IMG/VR virus record: IMGVR_UViG_3300005915_000047
Coordinates: 1-39,443 of that record
Reading direction: 5' to 3' (one strand)
From: a virus
Length of the DNA stretch: 39,443 nucleotides
Part shown: positions 215-39,165 of the stretch, piece after piece
Numbering within the stretch: position 1 is the stretch's first letter
How the letters are laid out: every line of letters starts with the position of its first letter
Notes under the pieces: generated by a model
What the model was told of the DNA's origin: nothing
Database searches by the model: none
Seen by the model: only the letters and a program-made list of their open reading frames with translations
Position numbers and translations under genes: made by a program

Positions 215-282
215 TTCATTCTTTATTCATTAGCTTTATATATGAAGAAACTACTACAAAAATAGAAAAATTAAAATAAATT

Positions 283-705: not shown

Positions 706-709
706 ATAT

Positions 710-1062: not shown

Positions 1063-1088
1063 GGCAGTCAATTTACCGTTTGACTGTC
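1063..1088. promoter_or_regulatory. Probable repressor operator (9-bp inverted repeat)
   Basis: GGCAGTCAA (1063-1071) and TTGACTGTC (1080-1088) form an inverted repeat, with one G/T position, around an 8-bp centre. It sits directly on the expected transcription start of the promoter at 1034-1062, so an RNA hairpin would lose most of its left arm. This favours a DNA-level operator. No other copy was noticed. Confidence 0.55.
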
Positions 1089-1150
1089 TAACGTTATCAC
1101 CGGCTCAGGCTGGAGGTATCGAATCGACGTAATCAGGCGGTTTTTTTAGT
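1089..1150 (+). other. Structured leader with T7 tract (attenuator-like)
   Basis: Between the operator and the next ATG the transcript can form CCGGC-UCAG-GCUGG (1098-1111) and a smaller CGUU/AACG hairpin that begins in the operator. It ends with GGCGG followed by seven T (1141-1147), only 3 nt before the start at 1151. The T tract looks like a terminator end, but I find no strong stem immediately before it, so this may be an attenuator or a short RNA rather than a plain 5' leader. Confidence 0.4.
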
Positions 1151-1285
1151 ATGAAACATATAAAAACAATCATAAACCAAAAGAAAAAAGAAATGGTCGA
1201 AGAATTACTAGGTTTTTCTGTCGAAGAATGGACTGCGGATCAGATTGACTTAGAGTTTTTTAGACTGATGGAAATTGAAGCATAA
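1151..1285 (+). CDS. 44-aa acidic/helical small protein
   Basis: The ATG at 1151 opens a 44-aa frame: a basic start (MKHIKTIINQKKK) followed by an amphipathic acidic helix (EELLGFSVEEWTADQIDLEF). It is the first reading frame after the operator-controlled promoter at 1034, which supports a regulated early product. Its size is compatible with a host-takeover peptide, but nothing in the sequence shows its role. No SD is present. Confidence 0.5.
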   Translation: MKHIKTIINQKKKEMVEELLGFSVEEWTADQIDLEFFRLMEIEA

Positions 1286-1306
1286 TTAATTAACATATAT
1301 AAATAT

Positions 1307-1543
1307 ATGAGCAAAACTAAAACATTTTATTTCGTCCCACTTGGATTTGACGACGAAGATAGAATACAAAGGGCAACTGAAGGTAAAATTGAATCAGGAA
1401 AAGCAATTACTGGTTATATGCTGACCAAAAGCCAGATAGCTAACAGAGTAGCAGAAGGTATTTTTTTGGAAGATGAAACAGACTTTTATAAATTTAAAAC
1501 GGCTGGAAAAGTAGTTCGTAAATTAGAAATAAAATTTAAATAA
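1307..1543 (+). CDS. Small hypothetical protein, 78 aa
   Basis: A soluble 78-aa protein with a beta-strand start (KTKTFYFVPLGF), a central segment (GYMLTKSQIANRVAEGIFLE) and a basic C-terminus ending in lysines. No family was recognised. The start follows an A/T-rich stretch (atataaatATG) without SD, like most genes here. It is 21 bp after the 44-aa gene and probably shares the promoter at 1034. Confidence 0.6.
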   Translation: MSKTKTFYFVPLGFDDEDRIQRATEGKIESGKAITGYMLTKSQIANRVAEGIFLEDETDFYKFKTAGKVVRKLEIKFK

Positions 1544-1700
1544 CTAACAATAGCGCGGCGGGCTAACCCGTCGAGATTAAATAGCACCCCCTCCTGACAA
1601 CTTCTACAATTGATTATTTATAATTTAATTATTTCTCTTCGTGCTATTTTCTGGTGGTGAATTAACATCTCCCGTCGTTCTTTTTTCTAGTTATCCACTA
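1544..1700. other. Intergenic region with two inverted repeats
   Basis: No gene is supported here. CGGCGGG-ctaa-CCCGTCG (1556-1573) is a 7-bp hairpin with one G-U, best formed on the plus strand. It could end the operon started at 1034, but lacks a T tract. AAATAGCAC (1579-1587) and GTGCTATTT (1641-1649) are perfect 9-bp inverted arms around 53 bp. TTATCCACT (1691-1699) is one mismatch from a DnaA box and abuts the -35 of the next promoter. Confidence 0.45.
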
Positions 1701-1729
1701 TTGACAAAACGAAAACAATGTGCTATAAT
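1701..1729 (+). promoter_or_regulatory. Consensus sigma70 promoter of the recombination operon
   Basis: TTGACA (1701-1706), a 17-bp spacer ending in the extended -10 TGC, and TATAAT (1724-1729) are a perfect consensus. The start would be near 1736, leaving a leader of about 25 nt before the gene at 1761. It probably drives the recombination genes downstream. Confidence 0.92.
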
Positions 1730-1760
1730 AAACAGACTTAATAAATTGTATATAAAACCT

Positions 1761-2234
1761 ATGACACACGAAAAACTACTACAAGTGAAGGGTTCATTAA
1801 AAGGTCTAGAGGATCAAATGGCTGTTAAAAAAGCTGCCTTTGAAGAAGATACCAAATTCTTGAAAGCCCAAATCAGTGATCTAGCTGATGAAGAGAACAT
1901 CCTAAAAGCAGAAGTCATGGCTGACATGGTAGAAAATAGCCAAGACAGTATTACTTGTGAAGACAAAGTTATTATTAAATCAATAAGAACAACTAAAAAG
2001 GTCGAGAATACCAATGATTTTTTCGAATCATTATCTGACGAAAAAGTAATGTCCGAGATAAAAGACTTTGTGGATATAGATAAAGTAAAAGAATCTATTG
2101 CCCAAGAATATGTTATCAAAGATAAAAAAACAGTAGAGAATATGTTTAATGAATACGAAAAATTGACTGGTAAATTACTACCTGGTGTAGTAAAAAATGA
2201 AACACAATATTTAACAATTAAAGATAAAGTATGA
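1761..2234 (+). CDS. Coiled-coil Gam/Gp157-like recombination accessory protein
   Basis: I start at ATG 1761 because upstream frame extension would run through the promoter at 1701-1729. The 157-aa product begins MTHEKLLQVKGSLKGLEDQM, continues as a long charged coiled coil to about residue 60, then has a conserved-looking C-terminal part (YVIKDKKTVENMFNEYEKL). Phages commonly place a host-nuclease inhibitor of the Gam type or a siphovirus Gp157-like protein immediately before SSB and annealing genes. Size, coiled coil and position fit, but I see no diagnostic motif. The stop overlaps the next ATG (ATGA), so translation is coupled. Confidence 0.55.
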   Translation: MTHEKLLQVKGSLKGLEDQMAVKKAAFEEDTKFLKAQISDLADEENILKAEVMADMVENSQDSITCEDKVIIKSIRTTKKVENTNDFFESLSDEKVMSEIKDFVDIDKVKESIAQEYVIKDKKTVENMFNEYEKLTGKLLPGVVKNETQYLTIKDKV

Positions 2235-3109
2235 ATGATGAAAAGCAACTAGACACAAAAGTTAATAATGAATTAATCAACCAAGATGCCATTAACGAAG
2301 CTAAAATGTTATCTGGTGAAATGGGAGGAAATCGTATGCCCTATATTCCAGTAATTAAAGTTAGCAATACTTGGGAAAAAATGGAAGACAATTCAAAAAA
2401 ACCACCAAAGAAAGGTTTTTTGATGACTAACAAAGAGGGCAACGATTATAAGACAGATTTTTGGAAAGAAAATTTAAACGCGGTAATTCTAAAGGTACGA
2501 TACTCAATCGCCTCTAAATATAAATTAGATGCTACTGATATTGATAGATTTTATAGCCGTGAATTTGATCGCTTTGATGAAATTATAGAAATTAAAAATG
2601 GTAATGGCGATGAAATCGCTAAAGGAAACTACAAACACTTATGTCATGAATTTGCTACTGGTCAAATGAACTCAATGGGCAAACCCCAAAAGAACTTTGA
2701 TCTTATGTTAATTATCTATGTGAATGTAGATGGAACTGTTTACAGACTAAAACTTAAAGGAAATAGCCGTAATAATTTCTTCGAGTATAAAAATTCCTTC
2801 GGCGATAGTGAAACCTTCGTTGGTATTAAAACAAATTTCAACTTAGAATGGGCAGAAAATGGTGATACTGCTTATTGGTTCATTAATTATGAGCGTGGAG
2901 AAGTGGTTAATTTAACTGAACAGCTTGAGGTTTTGAAAGAGTTATCTAAATATTTCAAGGTAATAGAAAAAATAGATGACAACAGAAATGGGATGCCACT
3001 TGAAAAAATAGCAACCTATGTTCAAGACGCTCCACCTGATGATGGATCACAACCCGAAGAAAAAGTAGAAGAAGAAGGCGCTATCGACGTAGAAGATATT
3101 CCATTTTAA
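2231..3109 (+). CDS. ssb: Phage single-stranded DNA-binding protein with SSB-type acidic tip
   Basis: The 292-aa protein has a folded, beta-rich core (about residues 30-240) and an acidic, flexible tail ending DVEDIPF. That is the signature of the SSB C-terminal tip (DDDIPF in bacterial SSB), through which SSB recruits repair and replication partners. The core is not an obvious canonical OB fold by eye, as in other divergent phage SSBs of this size. It overlaps the preceding gene by ATGA and is followed by the Rad52-type annealing gene, so it likely coats ssDNA for annealing. Both genes start with the same MNDEK peptide and similar DNA, hinting at copied start regions. Confidence 0.72.
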   Translation: MNDEKQLDTKVNNELINQDAINEAKMLSGEMGGNRMPYIPVIKVSNTWEKMEDNSKKPPKKGFLMTNKEGNDYKTDFWKENLNAVILKVRYSIASKYKLDATDIDRFYSREFDRFDEIIEIKNGNGDEIAKGNYKHLCHEFATGQMNSMGKPQKNFDLMLIIYVNVDGTVYRLKLKGNSRNNFFEYKNSFGDSETFVGIKTNFNLEWAENGDTAYWFINYERGEVVNLTEQLEVLKELSKYFKVIEKIDDNRNGMPLEKIATYVQDAPPDDGSQPEEKVEEEGAIDVEDIPF

Positions 3110-3120
3110 ATTAAAACAAT

Positions 3121-3831
3121 ATGAATGATGAAAAAAAACCTGTGAAAAAAAACCCAATCGAACTAGTGGCGAAAGCAATAAAAGAAGCTACAAAAGATAC
3201 AGTAGTTGAAATTAAAATGGGTGAACCACCAAAGAAAAAACTAACTTTATATGGAGATTCCTTATATTCAAAATTAAGTGTTCCAGTACCAAAAGAAATG
3301 CTTATAACTTTTACTATCAAGGAAAAAACATTTACTGGTTACCATGCGCAATATGCAATTGATCTTCTAAATAAAGAAGTTGGAATAGGTAAATGGTACA
3401 CAGAAGAAGAGGTCTTAGTACAAGAAATGTTAAAAAAAGGTTGGATGGTGGCCATGAGATTATCAATCTTTATTGATGGTTGCGATAAACCAGTTACTGG
3501 TTACGGTGGATTTTATGCTCGTAAAATTGAAGATGTATTCAAGGGAGCCAAAACCTCTGCCTTTAAAAATGCTTGCCGTTACTTAGGCATTGGAAAAGAA
3601 CTTTATTCTAAGGGTTTTGAAGATGATATTAAAGAAGATGAAGAAGAACCCGAAATTAAAGAAGATGTTGATATGCCTACAGAATCACAAGATTTATCTG
3701 ATAAAATCAAAAATGCAAAGACAATAGACGAAGTAAAAAAATTCGACAATATAATAAAGAACCTCAAGGCAGGTAATTTAAAAAACATTATTGTTGATGT
3801 GTATAACAAAAAACTGCTTGAATTACAGTAA
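3121..3831 (+). CDS. Rad52-family single-strand annealing protein
   Basis: Residues about 60-165 carry the Rad52/Rad22-like core: a GYHAQYAIDLLNKEVGIGKW segment, a central strand pair (GWMVAMRLSIFIDG), then GGFYARKIEDVFKGAKTSAF continuing into KNACRYLGIGKELY. The last part corresponds to the conserved 'KGAxTDALKRAxRxLGxxLY' helix of Rad52-type annealases. The C-terminal 70 residues are acidic and helical. Role (family knowledge): anneals complementary ssDNA during phage recombination. SSB upstream and an exonuclease-type nuclease downstream make a classic recombination module. Confidence 0.85.
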   Translation: MNDEKKPVKKNPIELVAKAIKEATKDTVVEIKMGEPPKKKLTLYGDSLYSKLSVPVPKEMLITFTIKEKTFTGYHAQYAIDLLNKEVGIGKWYTEEEVLVQEMLKKGWMVAMRLSIFIDGCDKPVTGYGGFYARKIEDVFKGAKTSAFKNACRYLGIGKELYSKGFEDDIKEDEEEPEIKEDVDMPTESQDLSDKIKNAKTIDEVKKFDNIIKNLKAGNLKNIIVDVYNKKLLELQ

Positions 3832-3840
3832 ATTATTCCT

Positions 3841-3863
3841 CTAGGGATTTAAAAAGTCCCTAG
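3841..3863 (+). other. Intercistronic hairpin, 10-bp stem
   Basis: CTAGGGATTT-aaa-AAGTCCCTAG pairs over 10 positions on the plus-strand RNA with one U-G wobble. On the other strand the same position would be an A-C mismatch, so this is likely a plus-strand RNA element. It lacks a T tract, so it may shape mRNA stability or relative expression between the annealase and the nuclease rather than terminate. Confidence 0.55.
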
Positions 3864-3878
3864 TGATAATTATTTACT

Positions 3879-4592
3879 ATGGAAATAAAAACTATTTCAG
3901 CCTCAAAGATGAATTCTTATGATCTTTGTCCGTATGCTTTCATGCTTAGATATAAACTAGGTTTGATACAACCTGATAGCAACGCACTTAGAATAGGAAG
4001 TTTGTGGCATAAGGGACTATATTTATTTCATAGTGGGCAAAGCGAAGAAAGTGTACTTGAAGAAATAAAATCAGAAATATTTGTTGATAAAACTAACGAG
4101 GAATTAAATCTTTGGGGAGAAATAAGGCCAATGTTGGAATTTTATTTTAATAATAAATATGAAAAAGATAACATTGCTTTGGAAGAAAAATTTTCAGTCA
4201 CTCTAGATGATCTACCTCCAATAGTAGGAATATTAGACAGAAGAATGGAAGATGAAGTGCTAGATTACAAAACTACTTCAAAAGATTATATCGAAGCCGA
4301 CATCATTAAAAATAACCAAACAATGCTATACGCCCTAATTCATTTTATAAGGACTGGTGAAATACCACTTGTAAGCTATTATATCGTGAATAAGGCCAAA
4401 ATAAAGAGAAAAGGGTATAAGCCTCAGATAATACAAGTAAAGCCCACAGAAGAGCAATTAGAGGCCTTTAAGGCGAAGATATACTCCTTTTACGACAATG
4501 TTTTAAACGATAGGTTCGAACCTAAGTTTGGATCACAATGCTACTGGTGTTCATTCAGAAAAAATTGCGAATATGTTAAAAAAAAATCTTAA
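3879..4592 (+). CDS. PD-(D/E)XK nuclease with Cas4/AddB-type Fe-S cluster
   Basis: The 237-aa protein has the RecB-like nuclease layout: G-SLWH with H44, GILD with D120, LDYKT with D129 and K131, and the QxxxY helix (Q147, Y151). Four cysteines, C17 plus C221, C224 and C230 (CYWCSFRKNC), are spaced as in Cas4 and AddB, where they bind a 4Fe-4S cluster that clasps the nuclease fold. The length matches free-standing Cas4-like phage exonucleases. It sits right after the annealase, so it probably makes the ssDNA on which the annealase acts. No cas genes or CRISPR array are nearby. Confidence 0.88.
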   Translation: MEIKTISASKMNSYDLCPYAFMLRYKLGLIQPDSNALRIGSLWHKGLYLFHSGQSEESVLEEIKSEIFVDKTNEELNLWGEIRPMLEFYFNNKYEKDNIALEEKFSVTLDDLPPIVGILDRRMEDEVLDYKTTSKDYIEADIIKNNQTMLYALIHFIRTGEIPLVSYYIVNKAKIKRKGYKPQIIQVKPTEEQLEAFKAKIYSFYDNVLNDRFEPKFGSQCYWCSFRKNCEYVKKKS

Positions 4593-4830
4593 CCCAAAAA
4601 TAAAAATATTCTTTGAAATGCTCGCCGAATTAACGGAACGTGAGTGGGATATTATTAACCAACGCTTTAATCATGATAAGTCTATTTATAATTTGGCTGA
4701 TAAATATAAAATATCTGGACAAAGAGTCAAGGCCATTGAAGATCGTATTGTAAGAAATTTAGAAATTGCCTTTGACGAGCCTGTTACTGTAAAAAAACCC
4801 GGGGCTAAAAAAGTAATTATTAATCTATAA
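4573..4830 (+). CDS. Sigma region 4-like HTH regulator
   Basis: I begin at ATG 4573; starting farther upstream adds only residues read inside the nuclease gene. The 85-aa product contains LTEREWDIINQRF, then NLADKYKISGQRVKAIEDRI. This matches the sigma70 region 4 helix-turn-helix pattern (LTxRExxVLxLR...TLxEIGxxxxxSxxRVRQIExxA). There is no region 2, so it is not a full sigma factor. It may be a transcription regulator that contacts -35 elements or the polymerase, possibly controlling early-late switching. It overlaps the nuclease gene by 20 bp. Confidence 0.72.
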   Translation: MLKKNLNPKIKIFFEMLAELTEREWDIINQRFNHDKSIYNLADKYKISGQRVKAIEDRIVRNLEIAFDEPVTVKKPGAKKVIINL

Positions 4831-4832
4831 AT

Positions 4833-5066
4833 ATGGATAATTTAAAAGAAGATGCCAATGGCATCCAATACACAGAAGGAAATAGAAAGACTAGAAGAAT
4901 GCTTGCCTTTCAAAAGAAAATTAAAGAGGATGAACTTAGACCACCAAAGAAGGTGAAATTAGTAAAAGAACTGTGGGAAAAAAATAAAAGTAAATTTTTA
5001 CACCCAAGGTTAAAACAAATATTTGGTAATATGTGGTTCATGAAAAATATTAATGATATTCAATAA
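4833..5066 (+). CDS. Basic hypothetical protein, 77 aa
   Basis: A Lys/Arg-rich soluble protein with a helical central part (NRKTRRMLAFQKKIKEDEL). No family was recognised. It starts 2 bp after the sigma-4-like gene and its stop is followed by one T and the next ATG (TAAtATG at 5064-5070), so it lies inside a tightly coupled operon. Confidence 0.55.
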   Translation: MDNLKEDANGIQYTEGNRKTRRMLAFQKKIKEDELRPPKKVKLVKELWEKNKSKFLHPRLKQIFGNMWFMKNINDIQ

Positions 5067-5067
5067 T

Positions 5068-5571
5068 ATGCATAATATAGCCTTAGAACAATTTCAAAAA
5101 GCAGCAGATAAATTTAATCTTAGAGATGATATTAAAAACTCTGCTGAAAGTATCGTCAAAATCAAGAACATCATTGATGATATTGTGAAGAACTTCAATA
5201 CCTTAGATGGGGCTGAATTATCAGAAGCCCAAGTAAAATTATCTGGCTACAAATTTTATTTAGCTGATGTAATAGCAGACCTACTTTCTAAATCTAAATA
5301 CCTAGAGAATTGGCTCAAAGAACAGAGAGCCAGAAAGTGGAAAGAATATACTGAGATTATTGTAGAGACAGAAGGTAAAGTCAAGAATAAAGAGCAAATT
5401 GAAAACATGTTTTTAACAAATCACAGCGAAGTAATCAGTATGCAGTCTATGTACGAGGCCGAGCATTCTAAATTGAGATTGAAGTCTTATGCTATCGATG
5501 ACATTTTGACTGCTCTTGTGCAATGTCGTGCCGCGCTAAAACGTGAGGTAGAATTAAGCAAAAGCCTATGA
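5068..5571 (+). CDS. Helical hypothetical protein, 167 aa
   Basis: ATG 5068 is chosen over the upstream in-frame ATG 5053 because it gives the recurrent TAAtATG junction with the preceding gene. The product is almost entirely alpha-helical and coiled-coil-like (heptad patterns around residues 20-80 and 100-165), with no catalytic motif. It overlaps the next gene by ATGA. Its setting in the recombination operon suggests a DNA-metabolism accessory role, but this is inference. Confidence 0.65.
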   Translation: MHNIALEQFQKAADKFNLRDDIKNSAESIVKIKNIIDDIVKNFNTLDGAELSEAQVKLSGYKFYLADVIADLLSKSKYLENWLKEQRARKWKEYTEIIVETEGKVKNKEQIENMFLTNHSEVISMQSMYEAEHSKLRLKSYAIDDILTALVQCRAALKREVELSKSL

Positions 5572-5768
5572 TAAAAAAATTTATACCAAATTGGAAAATA
5601 GCAGGTTTAAAAAACAGAAATGAAGCCTTTAAACATATGGTCGAGTGTTTATTGAAAAATCCAGCCTGTGCTGGTGCTGATGGATGTCTTGATATACATG
5701 TACTAGGGAAATGGTGGAAACTAAAGCCAATCAAACGAGCGCCTAAAGAAAATAAATATGTTACGTAA
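5568..5768 (+). CDS. Small basic Cys-containing protein, 66 aa
   Basis: A basic protein with three Cys in the middle (VECLLKNPACAGADGCLD) and a Trp pair (GKWWKLK). The Cys spacing does not form an obvious zinc finger. It begins with an ATGA overlap and ends 11 bp inside the next gene, so it is part of a chain of coupled small genes. No family was recognised. Confidence 0.55.
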   Translation: MIKKFIPNWKIAGLKNRNEAFKHMVECLLKNPACAGADGCLDIHVLGKWWKLKPIKRAPKENKYVT

Positions 5769-6084
5769 TAATTTCCCAAGCTATGTCAAAGAATTATTTG
5801 ATCAAGGCGGTTGGATGAATGACTGGGAAGATGGTAGAAATGACGCGGACAGTCTACACCACATAATAGGTAGGGACTCTAACAGTATTTATAACGCCGC
5901 GCCTTTGAATAACTGGCGTAGTCACCAACCAGAAGGACGCAAGAATCTACCTGATATCCATTCATTTGAGGCCGAGAGTAAATATCTTAAAAAAACAAAG
6001 AGATACTTAGACAAAATCGAGTACAAACCTAAATCAAAAGACCTCCAATTTTTGGAGGAATATAAAGAATATTATACAGAGTAA
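5758..6084 (+). CDS. HNH-like (beta-beta-alpha metal) nuclease, small
   Basis: The 108-aa protein carries H34-H35 (DSLHHIIGRDS), N46 (IYNAAPLNN) and H56 (RSHQPEG). This HH...N...H spacing is that of HNH endonucleases such as phage Ref/NinG-type nucleases. The usual Cys4 zinc knuckles are absent, and the remainder is a basic helix-rich tail. It could cut DNA during recombination or packaging. The call rests on motif spacing only and a non-nuclease role is possible. A 1-nt gap (TAAcATG) leads to the next gene. Confidence 0.55.
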   Translation: MLRNNFPSYVKELFDQGGWMNDWEDGRNDADSLHHIIGRDSNSIYNAAPLNNWRSHQPEGRKNLPDIHSFEAESKYLKKTKRYLDKIEYKPKSKDLQFLEEYKEYYTE

Positions 6085-6085
6085 C

Positions 6086-6247
6086 ATGAAAGAAGAAACC
6101 ATAGAAATTAAGAAACCCATAGACATTCTTAACCACAAAAACTGTCCTAAGTGTGGTACAGAACTCAAGGTTAAGAAATATAAGGGTTATATTTTCTGTG
6201 ATAAATGTAAAATCGAGTACACCTTTATAGTAAAAAAGCGGACTTAA
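6086..6247 (+). CDS. 53-aa zinc-ribbon protein
   Basis: An ATG one base after the preceding stop opens a 53-aa frame with CPKCG (residues 20-24) and CDKC (38-41), a complete Cys4 zinc ribbon, flanked by lysine-rich segments. Such ribbons usually bind nucleic acid or protein. The TAAcATG junction and the intact motif support a real gene. Its substrate is unknown. Confidence 0.7.
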   Translation: MKEETIEIKKPIDILNHKNCPKCGTELKVKKYKGYIFCDKCKIEYTFIVKKRT

Positions 6248-6267
6248 CCGCTGTAGCCATATACAAT

Positions 6268-6786
6268 ATGAAACTAAGTTATAGTGCCATGCGTCTACTA
6301 AAGCATACATTGCTTTATACAGGCGAAAAAGAGATCCAAATTGTTCAAGGAAAAGAAAACGAAATATTGTCTTCTCGAAGATTAAACGTAGACGAAGCAT
6401 CTCAACGTCGTCATTTCCTTAAAATTGCAGATCCAATTGAAGAAGAGACAGATAAAAAACTTAGAGAATTGGCTGAAGAGCATAATAAAAAAGTTGAAAC
6501 TAAAAAAGCAGAAGTTAAAAAAGCTTTACCAGTAATCAAAGATGAAACAGATGAACAAAAAAATAAAAGAGTAGATAAATTGATAAAAGGAGACACAAAA
6601 TTAACAGACTCTATTAAAAATGTTCAAGAAGATTCTATTAAAATAGCCACAGAAATTCATGAACTTAAAATAACAGACAAGACTAAAAAAGTATGTAACA
6701 AATACTTCGAAGAGTTTGGAGAAAAAAATGGATTTACTCCAGCAGACGACGAGTCATTAGAGGAATTAACTAATGCATTAAAATAA
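6268..6786 (+). CDS. Charged coiled-coil hypothetical protein, 172 aa
   Basis: The N-terminal 60 residues look folded (MKLSYSAMRLLKHTLLYTGE). Most of the rest is Lys/Glu-rich helix with heptad character up to about residue 145, ending with an acidic tail. No recognisable domain was found. It is followed by a TAAtATG junction to a small membrane protein, so it shares the operon with the recombination genes. Confidence 0.65.
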   Translation: MKLSYSAMRLLKHTLLYTGEKEIQIVQGKENEILSSRRLNVDEASQRRHFLKIADPIEEETDKKLRELAEEHNKKVETKKAEVKKALPVIKDETDEQKNKRVDKLIKGDTKLTDSIKNVQEDSIKIATEIHELKITDKTKKVCNKYFEEFGEKNGFTPADDESLEELTNALK

Positions 6787-27440: not shown

Positions 27441-27821
27441 TTATTTTTTAGCAGGTCGGCCTCTTTTTTTAGGGGCTTCGACTACTGTTTCGTCAACTAT
27501 TTTATCTTCCTCTTCTACTTTTTCTTCTACTTTTTCTTCTACTTTTTCTTCTACTTTTTCTTCTACTTTTTCTTCTACTTTTTCTTCTACTTTTTCTTCT
27601 ACTTTTTCTTTTTTAAGTTTTGTAATCACTTCTTCTATTGGTTCTACATCTAATTTTTCTTTGTCGCTTAACATAACAACATCCATCCCCCATTTTCTTG
27701 CCGTCTTTTTAATATGTGTAGCAACTTCAGTTCTGGTCACTTCAAATTCACCAGTTGGAACATGAATATCTTTTCCAGCAAATGTCATGTCAAATGCTTC
27801 AGAATCATTTCTTAATTTCAT
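27441..27821 (-). CDS. Protein with (KVEE)8 charged repeat and AT-hook-like tail, 126 aa
   Basis: Residues 1-70 look folded (beta strands around DIHVPTGEFEVTRTEV). Eight exact KVEE units follow, forming a highly charged, probably single alpha-helical rod, then an acidic stretch. The C-terminus is KKRGRPAKK, an AT-hook-type GRP core that may touch the minor groove of A/T-rich DNA. It sits among head and appendage genes. The repeat number is likely to vary among relatives because it is encoded by an exact 12-bp tandem repeat. Confidence 0.72.
   Translation of the reverse strand: MKLRNDSEAFDMTFAGKDIHVPTGEFEVTRTEVATHIKKTARKWGMDVVMLSDKEKLDVEPIEEVITKLKKEKVEEKVEEKVEEKVEEKVEEKVEEKVEEKVEEEDKIVDETVVEAPKKRGRPAKK
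27511..27606 (-). repeat. Eight perfect tandem copies of a 12-bp unit
   Basis: The unit TCTTCTACTTTT is repeated eight times without a mismatch from 27511 to 27606, encoding KVEE units on the minus strand. The perfection at the DNA level indicates recent expansion or slippage, which could change copy number quickly. Confidence 0.95.
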
Positions 27822-29403: not shown

Positions 29404-30615
29404 TTATTTTACGACATCGCGTAAACTAGCATTTTTGTTCGGTGCGCTACATGCAAGATTTGAGTAATATCTCAAAGTTGCTTGCCATGCAGGAGTAGTA
29501 GAACTTCTATCTAAGATAGAACCATCTTCATTCAAGAATGAAATTGGAGCCAAATCTTCTACAGACATTGTAGTTGGATCGATAAAGTTCATTTCATCAT
29601 AAGGATGATCATAATCTGCTACTACTGGAATGCCACTGAAATCTACGCCTTTGAAACCACCTTTAAGTTCCATAGTTTCAGTATAACGTCTATCCGGTGT
29701 CAAAAGTTGACCATAAGCGCTAAACACATCGAAATGAGTAAGAGCATATTTTGGAGAACCTTTCTTCATTGATTCTAACATGGTTGTGTACATCAATGCT
29801 TCAGTCAAAGAACGTTGACTTGTAGAATCACTAACATAACTATTCCACCAAGTATAAGAAGAACGAGCCAAACCTTGGAATGTATCTAAATTAGCTTGAT
29901 CATCAATCAAACCTTTAAGACCCATTACTTCAACTCCAATATTAGATACAGTTGGAGTAGTACCATTGGTATGAGCTAATATGACATAATCATTATCAGC
30001 TACACCAGCATCAGAATCAACAGTAAATGTATCACCATCAGTGATAGTAGATACTAAAGAAAAAGATGTTGAAGTGGCAGTAGTTTCTGAACTTGTGAAC
30101 ATCACACCATTGCCGATTTCTAAATAATCGGTTGGATTTTTACCTACCATTGGAGTATCCAAATCAAAAGTTGGAGTACTACCTATACCATCAACACGAG
30201 CAATAGTACCGGTACCGTAACCATAACCTTGACGTGAAAGTTGGCGTTGCATATCTTCCTTTGCGCCCATGTATTCTGATTCAAGAGCATTTACTAAGTA
30301 CTCTTTTGAACGTTTTGATGCTTGCAAAGCTACATCAGTCAAAGAAATAGTTTGGAAATTATATTTCATTGTAACGTTTGCTTGTAAGTATCCTTGGTTT
30401 CCTGCTGTTGGTAAGACAACAGATTCGCTACCAGCGGCTGAACCTACATTACGAAGGTAATGTACAGTTAAGTATTTGGTAGTTGCGCCCTGGTTCTGTG
30501 CTACATTGCGTAAGATATTGTTCCACAAAACATTCTTTTCAAAGACTTGTTCGTGTACAACTTTATCATAGATACGCATCGCAGCATTAGCCAGAGTACT
30601 GTTTGTTGCACCCAT
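29404..30615 (-). CDS. Major capsid protein, HK97-fold-like
   Basis: The 403-aa protein starts with an N-arm, then VLWNNILRNVAQNQGATTKY and a spine-helix-like segment (VALQASKRSKEYLVNALESE), and ends in beta strands (TLRYYSNLACSAPN). It lies right after a scaffold-like gene and 3' of the portal. Size, position and the spine-helix/beta pattern fit an HK97-fold capsid protein. The fold was not confirmed. A long hairpin follows the stop. Confidence 0.75.
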   Translation of the reverse strand: MGATNSTLANAAMRIYDKVVHEQVFEKNVLWNNILRNVAQNQGATTKYLTVHYLRNVGSAAGSESVVLPTAGNQGYLQANVTMKYNFQTISLTDVALQASKRSKEYLVNALESEYMGAKEDMQRQLSRQGYGYGTGTIARVDGIGSTPTFDLDTPMVGKNPTDYLEIGNGVMFTSSETTATSTSFSLVSTITDGDTFTVDSDAGVADNDYVILAHTNGTTPTVSNIGVEVMGLKGLIDDQANLDTFQGLARSSYTWWNSYVSDSTSQRSLTEALMYTTMLESMKKGSPKYALTHFDVFSAYGQLLTPDRRYTETMELKGGFKGVDFSGIPVVADYDHPYDEMNFIDPTTMSVEDLAPISFLNEDGSILDRSSTTPAWQATLRYYSNLACSAPNKNASLRDVVK

Positions 30616-30634: not shown

Positions 30635-31444
30635 TTAAATATCAGCATCTGCACTGTCAATAGCTTCCACTACAGCTTTTCTAATATCAACTGGATCAGT
30701 AGAAATTTTATTTTCTCCTGGTTCGTGAACATCACTTCCAACTGAAGGTTTTTCTACATCTTGAACGTTTTTCTTACCAGAAAGTCTTTGTTTAACTTCC
30801 CAGTCAATAATCTCATTACGTTTCATTTCATTAAAAGCTTCTTTAGGTGTCAGATACAATTTACCTTGTTCTTGCTGCCATTCTAAAACCTCATTATCTT
30901 CATAAGATGGTTTGCCTTCAGCACCGTCCCACTCAGTAGAAAGTTCAGAAATCTCTTGTTTGATCATTTCTGCTTTCGATTGATTGGTAGATTCTTCTTG
31001 CTTGGCTTTTTCTTTGTCAGCCCACATTTGTTCAGCCTGTTCTTTTGTAAAAACCTCTGGTTCAAATGGAACCTTAGATTCTTCAGGTGGAACAAACACA
31101 TCTTTCAATTTACCGATAGTTTCATTGGCGGCAGATAATTGCTCTTCAAGTTCAGACATTTTTGTAGTAGTACCCTTACCAGATTCTCTTTCAATTTGAA
31201 GAGCCTTGGTAAGATTTGCTACTTGTACTTGAAGTGTGCCCTCATCTTTACTATTTTTTATATCTTCTACTTTTTCGTCAGGGGTTTTATTTGGAGCAGT
31301 ATCAGGTTTAACTTCTGGTACTACTTCAGGTGCTACCTCTGGTTTTACTCCTTCTGGAGATACTATTTCAGGTGTTTCTACTGGGGAAGAACCAGCACCG
31401 TCACCGTTAACGGCTTCTTCTACTTCCTTTCTAACATCGTCCAT
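30635..31444 (-). CDS. Capsid scaffold protein, 269 aa
   Basis: A very acidic, Pro/Val/Glu-rich first part (VAPEVVPEVKPDTAP) is followed by a coiled coil at about residues 75-115 (TTKMSELEEQLSAANETIGK) and a charged helical rest, typical for a scaffold just before the capsid gene. I place the start at ATG 31444 (MDDVRKEVEEA, ttatATG context). The in-frame ATG 31480 would add a basic 12-residue leader that clashes with the acidic N-terminus. Confidence 0.72.
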   Translation of the reverse strand: MDDVRKEVEEAVNGDGAGSSPVETPEIVSPEGVKPEVAPEVVPEVKPDTAPNKTPDEKVEDIKNSKDEGTLQVQVANLTKALQIERESGKGTTTKMSELEEQLSAANETIGKLKDVFVPPEESKVPFEPEVFTKEQAEQMWADKEKAKQEESTNQSKAEMIKQEISELSTEWDGAEGKPSYEDNEVLEWQQEQGKLYLTPKEAFNEMKRNEIIDWEVKQRLSGKKNVQDVEKPSVGSDVHEPGENKISTDPVDIRKAVVEAIDSADADI

Positions 31445-31529
31445 ATAAATACGTTTACATCTTCTAGTACTAACGACCATTTTTTAACGAGGTTGCCGTT
31501 CCTCGATATACTATCAGAATTTAATAATT

Positions 31530-31826: not shown

Positions 31827-33686
31827 TTATTGATAATTTTCTTCAGCTTGTATATGCTCATCGAATATCTCTTGGTTTTGTTGGTAAGCATCTTGATTTT
31901 CCTGAATGAATGCCATATGGAGTTGCGTATGTTCTGGAGTCCATAAAGCTTGAGGTGTCAACGGAGGAGGTGTGCCAGCGGCCATACTCATATTTTCTTG
32001 ATCAGCTAAATCAGCCGTATCTGCCGGGCCTTCTCCTTCAGTTCTATGGCTTTCCTTTTGTTTAACCATCTCTTGTTTAAATTCTTCCTGTTTCTGTTTA
32101 TTCATTCTCTCAATAATATCACCAACATTTGAAAAGTTTAATTGCTCCAATACTGTTTGTGGATCAATCAATTTAGCTTCAGCTAATCTCATCATTCTAT
32201 CCATCTTACCCTCTTCAGAATAAGCAATCTCTGGAACAACAGTAACTCTTACAGTGCTAGGTTTAATAACAAGAGCATTCTCAGGTGCATTTTCAACATC
32301 ACCAATGAATTTAATCTTTTGACCATCTTCAATAATTTCATCAGATGCAATCTGATAATCAGATAATATCTCCAAACAAAATTCACCCATTTCAGATAAC
32401 ATTAACTCTAAATTCTCAACAGCTTCCGCTACAGTACTTGCATCAGCAGCCTGCAATGCTTCCACACCCTTACCAGACTGCAATGACCCGGGAACACGCC
32501 CTAGACTAGCTTCACGCATTCCACCTAATTCTTCAATCCATCTTTCAAGATTTGCAGTATAAGCAAATGGAGTTGACGGGAGTGGCTGTAAAGATTGCTG
32601 TGAAGGAGCAATATTACCTTTGTAATATATTTTCTCGGCTCCTTTATCAGTAATACTAGATACTTCTACACCCTGTTTAATAAGCCATTTACCTTTTAAC
32701 ATTCTTTGAATATAAGACTCAACTTGTGAAACTGTTTTATCCAAAGATTTGTTAATAGAAATAAGATCTTTTATCCATGCTTCACTATAAATAGAATTGG
32801 AAGCTTTTTCTGGGTTATAAACAAAAAATGGATAGCGTCTATAAGATGGCTCATAAACTCTAAGCAATTGATTGCCAGAGACAGTTATAACTTTCATCTT
32901 TACTTTCCCACCCTCAACCCATTTCATCCATATTTCCTTTACCAATGTAGAATCTAGTTCATCTGTACTATTGGTCCCCTCATTGTTATATTTTTCTTGC
33001 TCTAGTAATTCTTTATAATCAGAGGCTTCTTTTTTACTATCAGCTGTTATTTTTACTTTATACTTTGCATTCAAAGTAGAAATTGGTTTTTTGTAAGTTT
33101 TTATAATAAATCTACACTCTTGTACTGTGGGAGAACAAGGATCAAAAAATACATTGAAAGTATCATCTACCCAAAAATCTAAGTAATCTTCCCCATTCTT
33201 TTTAACAACTCCAGCTTCTATAATACCCACAGAGTATTTCAAAGAATTTACGATCTGGTCTGTTAGTAAACCTTTAATACCTCTAGTACGATAAACATAT
33301 TGTAAAATCTTGTTTTTTTTCTTTGCCTCATCATAAGCTTCATCAGTAACATCATCTGGATGCACTTCCCAGCGAGGTTGACTACGTTTAATAAAATTCT
33401 TAACACCACGAATTTGTGAACGAATCTTATTTACTGTACGACGAATTTCTCCATCAGAAACTGGGAGTGTTTGTACTTTATTCAAAGTTTTATTATAGAC
33501 AATCCAGTGATCACCACGAGCATAACGCTCATTAATATACCAATCACGATGTTGTTTCAAATAATATTTAACAGTACTATCACAAAGACTATCAATAAAT
33601 TTGACGACATTTTTGTCATCCTTTGTTTTTATTTTACCTTCTTTGTCTGTTTTAAATTGTATTTTCTTTAATTGTTCTAAATCCAT
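31827..33686 (-). CDS. Portal protein (P22-like), 619 aa
   Basis: Features typical of podovirus-type portals: YARGDHWIVYNKTLN near residues 54-70, then GEIRRTVNKIRSQIRGVKNF, a central beta/clip region, and a long helical C-terminus (MREASLGRVPGSLQSGKG segment before helices) ending in a Gln/Pro/Glu-rich tail. The size (619 aa) is in the usual portal range. It lies downstream of SpoVG-like and GroEL genes and its start gives TAAtATG. Confidence 0.85.
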   Translation of the reverse strand: MDLEQLKKIQFKTDKEGKIKTKDDKNVVKFIDSLCDSTVKYYLKQHRDWYINERYARGDHWIVYNKTLNKVQTLPVSDGEIRRTVNKIRSQIRGVKNFIKRSQPRWEVHPDDVTDEAYDEAKKKNKILQYVYRTRGIKGLLTDQIVNSLKYSVGIIEAGVVKKNGEDYLDFWVDDTFNVFFDPCSPTVQECRFIIKTYKKPISTLNAKYKVKITADSKKEASDYKELLEQEKYNNEGTNSTDELDSTLVKEIWMKWVEGGKVKMKVITVSGNQLLRVYEPSYRRYPFFVYNPEKASNSIYSEAWIKDLISINKSLDKTVSQVESYIQRMLKGKWLIKQGVEVSSITDKGAEKIYYKGNIAPSQQSLQPLPSTPFAYTANLERWIEELGGMREASLGRVPGSLQSGKGVEALQAADASTVAEAVENLELMLSEMGEFCLEILSDYQIASDEIIEDGQKIKFIGDVENAPENALVIKPSTVRVTVVPEIAYSEEGKMDRMMRLAEAKLIDPQTVLEQLNFSNVGDIIERMNKQKQEEFKQEMVKQKESHRTEGEGPADTADLADQENMSMAAGTPPPLTPQALWTPEHTQLHMAFIQENQDAYQQNQEIFDEHIQAEENYQ

Positions 33687-33687
33687 A

Positions 33688-33945
33688 TTATTCTTTCATT
33701 TTTTCATTAACTACGGTTTCTAATAAATAATATAATTCTTTGGTTAATGGATAGTAAAGTGAAATTACTTTCTCATTCACCTTTTTGTTTGGGAAAACCA
33801 AACGAATTTTTCCTTCTTGATTTAACTTAGAAAAGATAGCAATATTTCCTAAGTATAACATGTCATCAAGTACTACAGAGCAGAATGCTATCAAACCTTT
33901 ATTATCTGGTGCTACTTTTTTTATTTTCACGTTAGTGATTTTCAT
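33688..33945 (-). CDS. spoVG: SpoVG-family protein, 85 aa
   Basis: The sequence begins MKITNVKIKKVAPDNKGLIA and continues with strands and a C-terminal helix as in SpoVG (MKITDVRIRKV...), a small nucleic-acid-binding regulator first known from Bacillus sporulation and also carried by phages. It sits between the small membrane protein and the portal gene, coupled by TAGtATG on its 5' side (with a GGAG tract) and TAAtATG on its 3' side. A role in regulating late transcripts is inferred. Confidence 0.8.
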   Translation of the reverse strand: MKITNVKIKKVAPDNKGLIAFCSVVLDDMLYLGNIAIFSKLNQEGKIRLVFPNKKVNEKVISLYYPLTKELYYLLETVVNEKMKE

Positions 33946-33946
33946 A

Positions 33947-34210
33947 CTATTCTCCTTTTAAACTATTCAAAAGTTTATCTGCTGGAACCTGATCCAAATC
34001 AATCAACTCATTTTCTTCAACTTGAATTAGAGGTTCATCGTTTGTTTCACTCTCGACATATTCAGTTATATCTTTCGACTTTAACGAACGAGTCAACTCT
34101 CTAATTAGTTCTGTCTGCATGAAGTAAAAGTCCTTATCTTTTTTACTCAAGAGAAGATATATGAAAACTAGAGTTAGGAGAAATACTACTGCTAAAATAA
34201 TTAATTCCAT
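33947..34210 (-). CDS. N-anchored single-TM protein, 87 aa
   Basis: I start at ATG 34210 (MELIILAVVFLLTLVFIYLL), one base after the GroEL stop (TAAtATG); an upstream codon at 34237 would overlap GroEL. The N-terminal 20 residues are a strong TM or signal-anchor, followed by a charged cytoplasmic tail with helix-rich acidic segments. No family was recognised. Its coupling to the chaperonin gene suggests a head- or membrane-related role. Confidence 0.62.
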   Translation of the reverse strand: MELIILAVVFLLTLVFIYLLLSKKDKDFYFMQTELIRELTRSLKSKDITEYVESETNDEPLIQVEENELIDLDQVPADKLLNSLKGE

Positions 34211-34211
34211 A

Positions 34212-35774
34212 TTATTTTTTTTCTGGTTTAATTGCAATCGCTGTGGCAGAAGTAATCAATATTCCTGCGGTTGCTACTGAATTAATAATCTCATTCTTAA
34301 CAACTTTGAAAGGATCTATAACGCCAGTTTCTATCATGTCACAATATTCATCTGTCAAAGCATTGTAACCTTTTTTAGAACTAAGAATCTTATCAACAAT
34401 AGTCTCACCATTCTTTCCAGCATTCTTCGCTATAGAACTTACTGGTACCTTTAGAGAACTGCACACAATTTCCATGCCCGCGTCAATTTCTTTGATTCCA
34501 GTCTTTTCTATATCAAATATACATTTAAGCAAAGCTACTCCGCCGCCTTCTACAATTCCTTCTGCTATGGCTGATTTTGTAGCATTCAATGCATCCTCAA
34601 TACGATATTTAATTTCTGTCTGTTCTGTTTCACTAGCCCCACCAACTCTTATGTTAGCGACTGAACCAGTTATCTTACCCAATCTATCCTTCAACATTTC
34701 TGTTTTAAAAGTATCCTTTTCAACTTTCATTAATGATTTTATTTCTTCTACTCTCTCTGTGATGTCTCCCACTCCACCTACCACGACTGTATTATCACGG
34801 CTAACTACAATATTCTCACAAGTACCACAGTGCTCTAAACCAGCGTCTTTAAGCTTTACAGCATCTTCATCACCAACTACTGTAGCAGTAGTAAGAGCAG
34901 CCAAATCATATACTACATCACGTCTATAATCATTTAAGGATGATAATCTCACAGGAACACAGCTAAACTTTCCTAACATTTGATTCTGAGCTAGAAAAGC
35001 CATACCAGCACCTTCAATAGAGTTCACGAATAGAACAATTTTAGTCCTTCCTGCCTTAACCAATTTTTCAATCAATGGTAATAATTGATCTTGATTTACT
35101 ATAGTATCAGTACAGATAACTATAGTTGGTTTTTCAAAAACCGCAGCCAATTTTTTCCTATCATTTATAAAGATGTGTGATTCATAACCATTATCAGTTT
35201 TAGTTCCTTTGACATACTCAACTTCAGTCTCTAATGAATTTGAATTTTGCACTGTTATAATTCCATCAATGCCCACAGTATCAATTACATCATGAATCAT
35301 TTTACCAATCTTATCATCATTATTAGCTGAAATAGTAGCAATTTGAATCTTTTCTTCCTTAGTATCTATTTTTTTAACCTGTTTGTTTAGTTTTGAAAGA
35401 ACTTTCTCTAATCCTTTATCCATGCCTCTTTTCAAAAGTATAGGATTCATTCCTGTCGCTATAAATTTATTAGCTTCATTCACCATATTGGCGAGTAAAG
35501 CAACGGTTGTAGTAGTTCCATCACCAGCTTCTCTGTTGGTATTCTCGGCAGCTTCTCTGGCAATCATTACTCCCATATTCTCAAACTTATCTTCAAGAAA
35601 TATTTGTTGGACCACTGTTACACCATCCTTTGTAATAGTTGGGTAAGAACTATCCTCAAAGATAACGTTCTGTCCTTTAGGACCTAGTGTTGTAACTACA
35701 GCCTTGGCGACAATATTCAATCCTTTTGTTATTCTGTCTCGTACCTCTTCGTTGAAAATTACTTCTTTATACAT
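34212..35774 (-). CDS. groEL: Phage-encoded GroEL-type chaperonin
   Basis: The 520-aa protein is full-length group I chaperonin: VTTLGPKGQNVI and TKDGVTV (D50 aligns with E. coli D52), GDGTTT (residues 84-89, ATP binding), apical GYESHIFIN region, and ALNATKSAIAEGIVEGGG (contains the D398 equivalent), then DPFKVVKNEIINSVATAG. The usual C-terminal GGM tail is absent; it ends IKPEKK. Divergence is clear in the apical domain (LSSLNDYRRD where hosts have APGFGDRR). It follows GroES by 16 bp. It probably folds the capsid or another virion protein; that client is inference. Confidence 0.93.
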   Translation of the reverse strand: MYKEVIFNEEVRDRITKGLNIVAKAVVTTLGPKGQNVIFEDSSYPTITKDGVTVVQQIFLEDKFENMGVMIAREAAENTNREAGDGTTTTVALLANMVNEANKFIATGMNPILLKRGMDKGLEKVLSKLNKQVKKIDTKEEKIQIATISANNDDKIGKMIHDVIDTVGIDGIITVQNSNSLETEVEYVKGTKTDNGYESHIFINDRKKLAAVFEKPTIVICTDTIVNQDQLLPLIEKLVKAGRTKIVLFVNSIEGAGMAFLAQNQMLGKFSCVPVRLSSLNDYRRDVVYDLAALTTATVVGDEDAVKLKDAGLEHCGTCENIVVSRDNTVVVGGVGDITERVEEIKSLMKVEKDTFKTEMLKDRLGKITGSVANIRVGGASETEQTEIKYRIEDALNATKSAIAEGIVEGGGVALLKCIFDIEKTGIKEIDAGMEIVCSSLKVPVSSIAKNAGKNGETIVDKILSSKKGYNALTDEYCDMIETGVIDPFKVVKNEIINSVATAGILITSATAIAIKPEKK

Positions 35775-35790
35775 ATTTTTACATTATTAA

Positions 35791-36048
35791 TTAATCTTCT
35801 TTATAATCACAGAAACCTACGATGTCTTCTTTGTCTAGGAAATAATGCTCTTTGCCCTGAAGCTTCAGGACATAGATGGCATATTTTCCAAAGATCGCAG
35901 TTTGACCTACATGCTCTTCACCAGCTAAAATTTCACCAGTGATAAGATTTTTGTCTGACTCTGATTCCTCTAGAATAATATCTGAGTCTATTTTTGTGTT
36001 CTTGTGCTTTTTAATCAGGAGCACACCTGTGCGGGGTTCGATGTTCAT
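35791..36048 (-). CDS. groES: Phage-encoded GroES-type co-chaperonin
   Basis: The 85-aa protein matches GroES by MNIEPRTGVLLIKK at the start, a mobile-loop-like SDIILEE (IVL motif equivalent), GEILAGEEHVGQ, IFGKYAIYVLKLQGKEHYFL and EDIVGF at the end. It is about 12 residues shorter than the E. coli protein; the roof-loop region appears reduced. It overlaps the previous small ORF by ATGA and precedes GroEL, so the two make a phage chaperonin system. Confidence 0.9.
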   Translation of the reverse strand: MNIEPRTGVLLIKKHKNTKIDSDIILEESESDKNLITGEILAGEEHVGQTAIFGKYAIYVLKLQGKEHYFLDKEDIVGFCDYKED

Positions 36049-36222: not shown

Positions 36223-37215
36223 TCAATCTTGATCAAAGGCATCCATTATAGATGCTTTCGGTTTACATAAATCTTCAATATCCTTCTGGATTCTAGTCTT
36301 TTCCATCGGAGGAACAACAGGTTCAATCGGTCGTGTCTGAATCAGATATCTCAAGGCATCAATCCCATGCTCGTCTTTTTTTATTGGTGTCTCGGATTGA
36401 TTTTTACTTCTCGCGATTACTTCTGTATTCTCCTTATAACGATAATTCTTCAACTGTCGGCAAAGATTCGGACATTTATCTTCAAAAATATACAACTTGG
36501 TTTGACCATCAACTATCTGCATGAACTCTCTTATCTTAGTAATCCCAGAACCTATATCATTTATACCCGGGAAAAAATCCCAACCATTGTCATAGAACTC
36601 TTCTTTCACTGAATAAGGAATCTCCTCGCCTTCAATTACCTTTGAACGATTCTTCGAGGCTGTTGAAGGGTCAATCACTGCTATCTGAAATGTATTATAT
36701 ACCAAATTTCTTTTCTCTTCCATGGACATAAAGTTTATATCCTTGGTCGAGTTGAAAATGTAATCAAACTTGGCAAACATTTCACGGGAAGCCTTACTAG
36801 GTAAAGCTGGTTTATAATATTCATCTATAATATACAGCGTGCCATCTTCAGTCCACTTACAAACTAAAGCATGATTCGGGTTTCTTTGGCCGAAATCTAA
36901 AGTAATTAGATTCTCAGTCAAGCCTCCTATCTCAAATGAATCGATGTAATGAATATTAGTATCGAAATCACAATACTCTTTACCAAAAACTAATTTACCA
37001 GACTTAGTGGTGAAATCAATCTCATGCTCTTTGTCCCAGACAGCTTTTGGAGTCCCGCGTCGCTCGGCTTCATACCAATCCTTACCATCGCGCTCTGGAT
37101 CTTTTTCTGGATCAGAGGAGTAGTGAATCATGAATACCTTAAACTTATTCCCGGGATTTTTCCATTCCTTGATTCCGCGGACCGTTTCTTCGTGTTCAAT
37201 GTCAGCATACTTCAT
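36223..37215 (-). CDS. terL: Terminase large subunit, nuclease half
   Basis: The 330-aa product carries the RNase H-like nuclease of TerL: D107 in LDFGQRN, D182 in VIDPS, and D286 in DEHGIDALRY, plus the linker segment with KAVWDKEHEIDF. It starts at an ATG that overlaps the stop of the ATPase half as ATGA. TerL is usually a single protein; here ATPase and nuclease are encoded by two ORFs, both with intact key residues. A sequencing frameshift cannot be excluded, but the coupled start looks functional. Confidence 0.85.
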   Translation of the reverse strand: MKYADIEHEETVRGIKEWKNPGNKFKVFMIHYSSDPEKDPERDGKDWYEAERRGTPKAVWDKEHEIDFTTKSGKLVFGKEYCDFDTNIHYIDSFEIGGLTENLITLDFGQRNPNHALVCKWTEDGTLYIIDEYYKPALPSKASREMFAKFDYIFNSTKDINFMSMEEKRNLVYNTFQIAVIDPSTASKNRSKVIEGEEIPYSVKEEFYDNGWDFFPGINDIGSGITKIREFMQIVDGQTKLYIFEDKCPNLCRQLKNYRYKENTEVIARSKNQSETPIKKDEHGIDALRYLIQTRPIEPVVPPMEKTRIQKDIEDLCKPKASIMDAFDQD

Positions 37216-37910
37216 ACGATTTCTAATAAATCAAAACATAATTCTTGAAAGTAAGTATTGTCCTCGGCTGTACTAACGCAAGTCATACGCCCGCCATTTG
37301 AAATAGTAGGACGTGCAGCTGTAAAGGAAGACTTGGCTTCGTTCTGAAAGGCCATCTCATCTGAAAATAACCCAGATAAGGTGTGCATTCGAACGATATC
37401 CCCACCTTGAGGAACGCCACGAATCTCGGAATAGATGTCAGGGAAGCACATCTTACAAGAGATATGCTGGCCTTTGTTCTGTGGGTTGCATGTAAGTTCC
37501 TTGAAAATACCATCTTCTTGATATCTCTGAAGAAACTTAGGGAGATTATCCCAAATAAATTTGCAACGCTTGATCAAATCATCAGCGTCTTCTTCTTTTT
37601 TACTTTGAAAGAACGTGAGTTTTCCTTTGTGGAACATCGTGTCCCAAAGATAAAGTCCTACACATAACCAGGTAAGCATCATCTGCCTAGATTTTGGTAT
37701 GAGTAAGAGTTTCTCTTCGAGCCAGACTTCAACAAATCTTTCTATATAATCTTTTTCTGGGAAAGTTTTGATAGGATTTATGTCGTCATGTACATCCAAA
37801 GTTTTTGCCCAAGTAGTGAGAAAGTAGTAAGGATCTGACTGACAGATACCCCATTCAGCATCTTGCAGTTCTGGACTATTTTTTAACTTTTCTAGATATC
37901 CTACTTCCAT
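37212..37910 (-). CDS. terL: Terminase large subunit, ATPase half
   Basis: The 232-aa product has a Walker A-like LIPKSRQMMLTW (73-82), Walker B LFSDE (181-185) and the coupling motif CVSTAED (211-217), then runs out at FDLLEIV. These are the ATPase motifs that power DNA packaging. The nuclease half follows in a -1 frame with an ATGA overlap. The gene is preceded by the structured element with 16-bp repeats. The long A/T-rich spacer has no SD. Confidence 0.85.
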   Translation of the reverse strand: MEVGYLEKLKNSPELQDAEWGICQSDPYYFLTTWAKTLDVHDDINPIKTFPEKDYIERFVEVWLEEKLLLIPKSRQMMLTWLCVGLYLWDTMFHKGKLTFFQSKKEEDADDLIKRCKFIWDNLPKFLQRYQEDGIFKELTCNPQNKGQHISCKMCFPDIYSEIRGVPQGGDIVRMHTLSGLFSDEMAFQNEAKSSFTAARPTISNGGRMTCVSTAEDNTYFQELCFDLLEIV

Positions 37911-38641: not shown

Positions 38642-38668
38642 AAAAAAACTGACTACAAATTAGCCAGT
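38642..38668 (-). terminator. Intrinsic terminator at the end of terS
   Basis: On the minus-strand RNA, ACUGGCUA-auuug-UAGUCAGU forms an 8-bp stem (one G-U) followed by a run of seven U. The TerS stop codon lies in the stem. Transcription of the remaining late genes must either read through or be started by another promoter. Confidence 0.8.
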
Positions 38669-39165
38669 AACTTTTTCTTGTACTCTTCTTTTTCTTCAAC
38701 TGTCATTTTTGAGAAATCAGGTGCAGTCTGATCATCCATAGTAACTTTATGAAGTTCAGGTGAGAAATCTCCTATCAATTTCGCAAGGGTATTTATAGCC
38801 GATACAATATCTTTAGGATCATGTTTCACTCTCACTTCTTTCTCAACCAAAATAACTTTACCTTTAGCATCCAACTCCTTAACCTTCTTCAGTATAATTT
38901 TTTCACCATTAATAATTTCCGCCAGTCTTTCCGTTACTTTCTTCCTATCAACTCCTTCTTCCCGCGCAATCCTTTTATAGTCACCCTCAGCTACTTCAAT
39001 AGCCTCAAGTATCTTTTCATTCTTCAATGCTTTACAGGCATTCACTCTAGCAGCTTGATCACTATCACAATTCTCGTAAGCTTCTTTATAAGCATGAAAA
39101 CCATCGAATCCATTCGACATGTAAAGCTCTACAAACTTTTCCTGTTGTTTAGTTAAATTTGTCAT
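38653..39165 (-). CDS. terS: Terminase small subunit
   Basis: The 170-aa protein starts MTNLTKQQEKFVELYMSNGF and continues with DGFHAYKEAYENCDSDQAAR, the helix-turn-helix pattern of phage TerS proteins (LTxxQxxFVxxYxxxxxxxxAxxxAGY). Coiled-coil and acidic helical C-terminal parts follow, ending KKKLLANL. TerS recognises packaging DNA and loads TerL. The promoter at 39193-39221 lies directly upstream and the terminator at 38642-38668 directly downstream. Confidence 0.82.
   Translation of the reverse strand: MTNLTKQQEKFVELYMSNGFDGFHAYKEAYENCDSDQAARVNACKALKNEKILEAIEVAEGDYKRIAREEGVDRKKVTERLAEIINGEKIILKKVKELDAKGKVILVEKEVRVKHDPKDIVSAINTLAKLIGDFSPELHKVTMDDQTAPDFSKMTVEEKEEYKKKLLANL

Follow-up and report, generated by a model that had tools for sequence, protein, structure and literature searches.

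The window analysed here is the 39,443 nucleotides at positions 1 to 39,443 of IMG/VR record IMGVR_UViG_3300005915_000047, from an uncultured phage. It contains a late operon on the minus strand, in the order small terminase subunit (TerS), split large terminase subunit (TerL), 65-aa ORF, GroES, GroEL, two small ORFs, portal and major capsid protein (MCP). The features of this region, with the evidence for each, are as follows.

38653-39165, minus strand: terminase small subunit (Pfam Terminase_2, 5.1e-9; PHROG 51)
37212-37910, minus strand: terminase large subunit, ATPase half (PHROG 2, 8.3e-11)
36223-37215, minus strand: terminase large subunit, nuclease half (Pfam Terminase_3C, 5.2e-7)
35791-36048, minus strand: GroES, co-chaperonin Cpn10, 85 aa, roof hairpin absent (Pfam Cpn10, PHROG 3188, AlphaFold2/Foldseek, alignments)
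34212-35774, minus strand: GroEL, group I chaperonin Cpn60, 520 aa, GGM tail absent (Pfam, PHROG 5725, model, ATPase residues)
35625-35627, minus strand: codon of GroEL D50, equivalent to E. coli D52 (alignment to E. coli)
35520-35522, minus strand: codon of GroEL D85, equivalent to E. coli D87, metal/ATP site (alignment to E. coli)
34593-34595, minus strand: codon of GroEL D394, equivalent to E. coli D398, ATP hydrolysis (alignment to E. coli)
33947-34237, minus strand: small protein with a hydrophobic N-terminal stretch, conserved neighbour (ORF list, synteny)
33688-33945, minus strand: SpoVG-like protein, conserved neighbour (Pfam SpoVG, 3e-9; syntenic in relatives)
31827-33686, minus strand: portal, P22 type, conserved downstream neighbour (Pfam P22_portal, 2.5e-23)
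30635-31480, minus strand: putative scaffold (late operon, between portal and MCP)
29404-30615, minus strand: MCP, putative chaperonin client (PHROG 14242, 1.7e-52)

As a sequence-only reading of the same DNA had proposed, GroES and GroEL are both present, intact and adjacent, on the evidence of their ORFs, Pfam and PHROG matches and predicted folds. The flanking genes, identified by Pfam and PHROG, place the pair between the terminase and a P22-type portal in the head operon, again as that reading had it. Judged by its genes, the region is a P22-like podovirus head module, with a P22-type portal, the terminase pair upstream and the MCP downstream. The small protein at 33947-34237 more probably starts at an ATG near 34210 than at the listed TTG. 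The SpoVG-like gene between groEL and the portal is kept throughout the clade of relatives described below. The division of TerL (36223-37910) into separate ATPase and nuclease ORFs is also clade-wide; the halves are separated by other ORFs in several relatives, and by a tRNA gene in L004. Elsewhere in the window, a tandem array of 12-bp repeats occupies positions 27473-27637, within a minus-strand ORF at 27441-27821.

The sequence-only reading had placed the pair in a genome of roughly 40 kb. The window is contained in a longer contig of 50,215 bp (G001): the first 9,269 bases of the reverse complement of this contig match without mismatch, and window positions 1-6000 match at 100%. The window is therefore a fragment, and the 40-kb estimate is wrong. 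The genome measures at least 50.2 kb here and 62.85 kb in a complete relative (G003, 62,850 bp), completeness being indicated by an exact 127-bp terminal repeat. Two further relatives, G004 and G005, measure 63.9 and 54.6 kb.

The GroEL protein was matched by Pfam Cpn60_TCP1 (E=1.3e-54, residues 22-508 of 520) and by PHROG 5725 groEL (E=5.6e-124), and its model, which has a TM score of 0.93 against E. coli GroEL, predicts a full-length, three-domain Cpn60 fold. Alignment to E. coli shows that D52, D87, D398 and the ATP/Mg motif are all retained in the window protein; the loss of key ATP-binding residues, which the sequence-only reading had named as an observation that would refute it, was not found. 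Among 18 aligned clade GroELs, T30, G32, D52, G53, G88, T89 and D398 are invariant, and D87 is present in 17. The GroEL at 2450-4060 of contig L009 has A in place of the conserved D87 (AGAGTTTT), and is either an ATPase-altered variant or the result of a sequencing error.

Other parts of GroEL have changed. The window protein ends in AIAIKPEKK, with no GGM tail, and the tail is absent from every aligned clade GroEL. In the apical domain, V264, a residue that matters in E. coli GroEL for the binding of both GroES and substrate, is replaced by Q in 16/18 clade sequences, and T261 by F in 17/18. The residue type at Y199/F, F204 and L259 of the apical groove is largely retained across the clade, positions 234, 237 and 263 are mostly non-polar and L200 is mostly polar; in the window protein, four of the five GroES/substrate groove positions L234, L237, L259, V263 and V264 are non-polar. 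The inter-ring residue E461 is lost in all 18 sequences, position 463 being acidic in all; R452 at the ring interface is variable, and the D83-K327 pair is gone.

By sequence, GroES was matched weakly, by Pfam Cpn10 with E=1.3e-4 (22.4 bits, the cut-off being 21.1) and by PHROG 3188 with E=2.1e-5. As the Pfam score barely exceeds the cut-off, the assignment was checked further by predicted fold and homologue alignment. An AlphaFold2 model (pLDDT 84.6) predicts a Cpn10 beta-barrel, its confident Foldseek matches in the PDB were to the Cpn10 family or to T4 gp31, and 20 homologues align along the full length of the protein. The predicted fold and these homologues secure the identity of GroES despite the weak sequence matches. 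The mobile loop has the E. coli length, with IIL in place of IVL, and the low model confidence of loop residues 20-29 suggests that it is flexible; in relatives the hydrophobic tripeptide is looser. Alignment to E. coli shows that the roof hairpin, about 14 residues, is missing, as it is from T4 gp31. GroES is roofless throughout the clade, with the stretch partly refilled in L134. The alignments thus bear out the earlier description of a GroEL without a GGM tail and with a divergent apical surface (V264 to Q, T261 to F), and of a GroES shortened at the roof loop. The changed groove, the absent tail and the absent roof are common to nearly all relatives.

To survey these relatives, contigs were retrieved both with GroEL and with the portal alone, since a set retrieved with GroEL would be biased; apparent duplicates were counted once. 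GroEL lay between TerL and the portal in 16/16 distinct portal-baited contigs, and GroES was adjacent to it in all 13 that reach the site. The GroES-GroEL pair is therefore core in this clade, to which the statement is confined because every baited portal is at least 60% identical to that of the window. Mean pairwise identity across the clade was 63% for GroEL, 63% for TerL and 65% for the portal. In close pairs, some of which have a dS at or close to saturation, dN/dS was 0.09-0.17 for GroEL and 0.05-0.16 for GroES; both genes are under purifying selection.

Several relatives carry inteins or intein-like inserts in this region. The groEL gene of L007 (IMGVR_UViG_3300033064_004544), whose product is about 75% identical to the window GroEL, contains an in-frame, intein-like insert of 327 aa (DNA 1880-2860) located exactly inside the ATP motif, AGDG^TTTT. 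The insert has a LAGLIDADG domain (Pfam, 1.2e-5) and no N-terminal Cys or Ser, and ends in HN followed by Thr. Its residues DHLW, MQC and ILTHN would fit the W-C-T pattern of class 3 inteins (PMC7664689). The literature searched yielded no published description of a GroEL intein. The L007 portal (4758-6398) also has an intein-like stretch, and terminase inteins were recognised at L123:1588-3615 (with an HNH domain) and L125:2302-3819, and probably at L130:951-2456 and L006:3-1130. Packaging genes of the clade thus appear, from their sequences, to be rich in inteins. In L008, the gene directly after groEL (3727-4317) encodes a free-standing HNH endonuclease that has NUMOD3 motifs. MCP homology is split into separate ORFs at L125:11002-13727, L130:9913-12738 and L134:10068-12018, separated by gaps of roughly 0.7-0.9 kb, a pattern that introns or homing elements could produce; an Rfam scan of the loci with interrupted MCP genes found no self-splicing intron.

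The origin of the pair was addressed by a GroEL phylogeny, a check that the sequence-only reading had itself suggested. The tree sampled few bacterial phyla, with Bacteroidota and most others outside it. Clade GroELs were monophyletic (bootstrap 100, SH-aLRT 100), their stem measured 1.1-1.4 substitutions per site, and the closest bacterial GroEL was only 42% identical. In a first tree the chaperonins of phages EL and AR9 had very long branches, far from the clade, and the clade lay near Patescibacteria GroEL; the latter grouping was lost when more Patescibacteria were included and the longest branches removed. The pair could in principle be cargo, bacterial groES-groEL captured recently, or the product of a misassembled or bacterial contig. 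The monophyly, the long stem, the low bacterial identity, an identical locus in two other contigs and the same phage neighbours in all relatives refute these explanations, to which we give practically no weight. The clade support, the low bacterial identity and the phage genes on both sides point instead to an old phage lineage. Separately, a second group of viral contigs (L033, L034 and L035, 25-40 kb) encodes very divergent GroELs of 504-509 aa (33-35% identity), and in L035 a short GroES-like ORF lies directly upstream of GroEL.

As to function, we lean towards an open-topped cage of the GroEL type, dedicated to virion proteins that the phage encodes in the same late operon. The anatomy of the genes and proteins fits a canonical GroES-GroEL cycle, and we infer that the GroEL assembles into rings and that the GroES is its partner. 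The phage would make its own group I chaperonin, whose rings would bind non-native phage protein. ATP would raise the apical domains, the phage GroES would cap the ring via its mobile loop, and folding inside would be followed by release. Without the roof hairpin of GroES, the top of the cage would be more open than with E. coli GroES, as has been argued for gp31 (PMC6318259). The main clients would most likely be late-operon virion proteins, the operon position suggesting the MCP and perhaps the portal. Their masses are 44 kDa and 71 kDa respectively, and a 71-kDa portal exceeds the usual capacity of a closed GroEL-GroES cage.

The intact ORFs with both predicted folds, the retained ATP/Mg residues, the constant location of the pair between TerL and portal, the conservation of GroEL to the same degree as TerL and portal, and the low dN/dS of both genes all favour such a dedicated cage. 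So does the missing roof, a feature shared with gp31, the T4 co-chaperonin required for the T4 capsid protein, which likewise has a Cpn10 fold without roof loops (PMC6318259). Gp31 differs in using the host GroEL as partner and in having a longer mobile loop, whereas the window GroES has a loop of E. coli length and its own GroEL is encoded beside it. On the other side, the 44-kDa MCP fits an ordinary cage, V264 has become Q, and the operon position may reflect timing only. In addition, no Cpn60 was present anywhere in the records of Microbacterium phage Shocker and MW202554, whose MCPs belong to the same family (28-30% identical), which speaks against any simple dependence of this capsid fold on a chaperonin. 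The earlier suggestion that the capsid protein requires a dedicated chaperonin stands as a plausible best guess, qualified by these distant phages of the same MCP family.

Other phage pairs occur in different settings. Cellulophaga phage phi38:1 (KC821614, 72.5 kb) likewise has Cpn10 and GroEL in one operon, but with one ORF between them and beside exonuclease and DNA polymerase genes; its GroEL is about 31% identical to that of the window. The pair of phage immuto adjoins DNA polymerase, unlike the window pair in its head operon. These locations away from head genes are what would be expected of a general-purpose chaperonin, supplying extra or replacement GroEL-GroES capacity for many phage proteins, for a wider host range or under stress, with operon position a matter of timing. 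The in vitro folding of endolysin by the EL and AR9 chaperonins (PMC9598537) and the occurrence of the MCP family without Cpn60 are also in keeping with it. The fixed TerL-portal position and the clade-specific changes in the apical groove suggest few clients, and we consider a general-purpose role fairly unlikely, though deserving of attention.

The chaperonins EL gp146, OBP gp246 and AR9 gp228 are likewise phage GroEL homologues (about 24% identical). They function without a co-chaperonin (PMC9598537), and no GroES is annotated beside GroEL in the EL or AR9 records, whereas the window clade co-conserves groES. Single-ring phage chaperonins also exist (PMC9598537). With this precedent, the loss of E461, the variable R452, the V264 to Q change and the absence of the D83-K327 pair and GGM tail could indicate a divergent role, in which GroEL works by itself or in a single ring, or forms mixed complexes with host subunits and so redirects or inhibits the host chaperonin, rather than completing a closed cycle with its own GroES. 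Such a role seems unlikely given a GroES that is adjacent and co-conserved in every contig reaching it and is under purifying selection. The same features (V264Q/T261F, loss of E461, no GGM tail or roof) allow a bolder, tentative version of the dedicated cage, possible but on balance doubtful: an orthogonal, open-topped, perhaps single-ring machine that does not cross-pair with host subunits and is obligate for the phage's own head proteins.

It had also been suggested that the host has no suitable GroEL, as in some reduced bacteria, so that the phage must supply its own. Among the reduced Patescibacteria, 15 of 145 genomes gave no Cpn60 match, these being incomplete drafts. Cpn60 was found in the other 130 and in all 14 control genomes, Bacteroides included. 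Among 31 window ORFs, Shine-Dalgarno-like sequences precede 3%, T occupies position -1 in 94% and A position -3 in 65%. Cellulophaga and Flavobacterium phages are similar (SD 0-11%, T 58-73%, A at -3 in 53-55%), whereas Patescibacteria have more SD sequences (22%) and less A at -3 (33%). This start-codon context points weakly to Bacteroidota as the better guess, and Cpn60 is present in the control genome of that phylum. The promoter motif TAnnTTTG was mildly enriched (74 versus 56, s.d. 8). The clade portal had no match in 380 Patescibacteria genomes, in a search run without a positive control. A host lacking GroEL thus finds no support, and we regard it as improbable.

The sequence-only reading had treated a paired system as striking in a genome of roughly 40 kb. 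Phage GroES-GroEL pairs are already known, both genes being carried by phi38:1, elemo, immuto, MW202566 and Maribacter phage Panino (PMC11590407). The elemo podoviruses of Flavobacterium (elemoB_14-3B, NC_062741, 60.9 kb) likewise have adjacent GroEL and GroES genes and a similar genome size, but there GroEL comes first, on the opposite strand, among hypothetical and tail-fibre genes and not between TerL and portal, and the GroEL is about 31% identical to that of the window. Their GroES is also short (83 aa) and roofless, so the missing roof is not unique to the window clade. MW202566 (Manatee Spring, circular, 38,956 bp) is a true 39-kb genome with a pair: a groES-like gene, annotated 'mhsp60', lies directly before groEL, upstream of the terminase. 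It belongs to another lineage, annotated as a myovirus, and its GroEL is 33% identical. A tblastn search of GenBank phages with the window GroES gave no match even at E=1, and it was only by looking beside GroEL that GroES genes of other phages were located.

According to the account of Marine et al. 2017 in PMC9611531, virioplankton contigs carry phage GroEL genes linked to a gene for the small subunit, the gene order follows GroEL phylogeny, and the genomes concerned are likely to exceed 70 kb. The window clade, at about 50-64 kb, lies below the size linked to viral GroEL in that account. The present case adds a well-supported new lineage to the phages with such pairs, and no new phenomenon: within an unclassified clade, the pair has a fixed place in the head operon and shows coordinated interface changes. 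A complete chaperonin pair is in this clade a constant component of that operon, not an occasional extra. The clade is a natural test case for which features of GroEL and GroES, among them the roof, the GGM tail, V264 and the inter-ring salt bridge, are dispensable when clients may be few.
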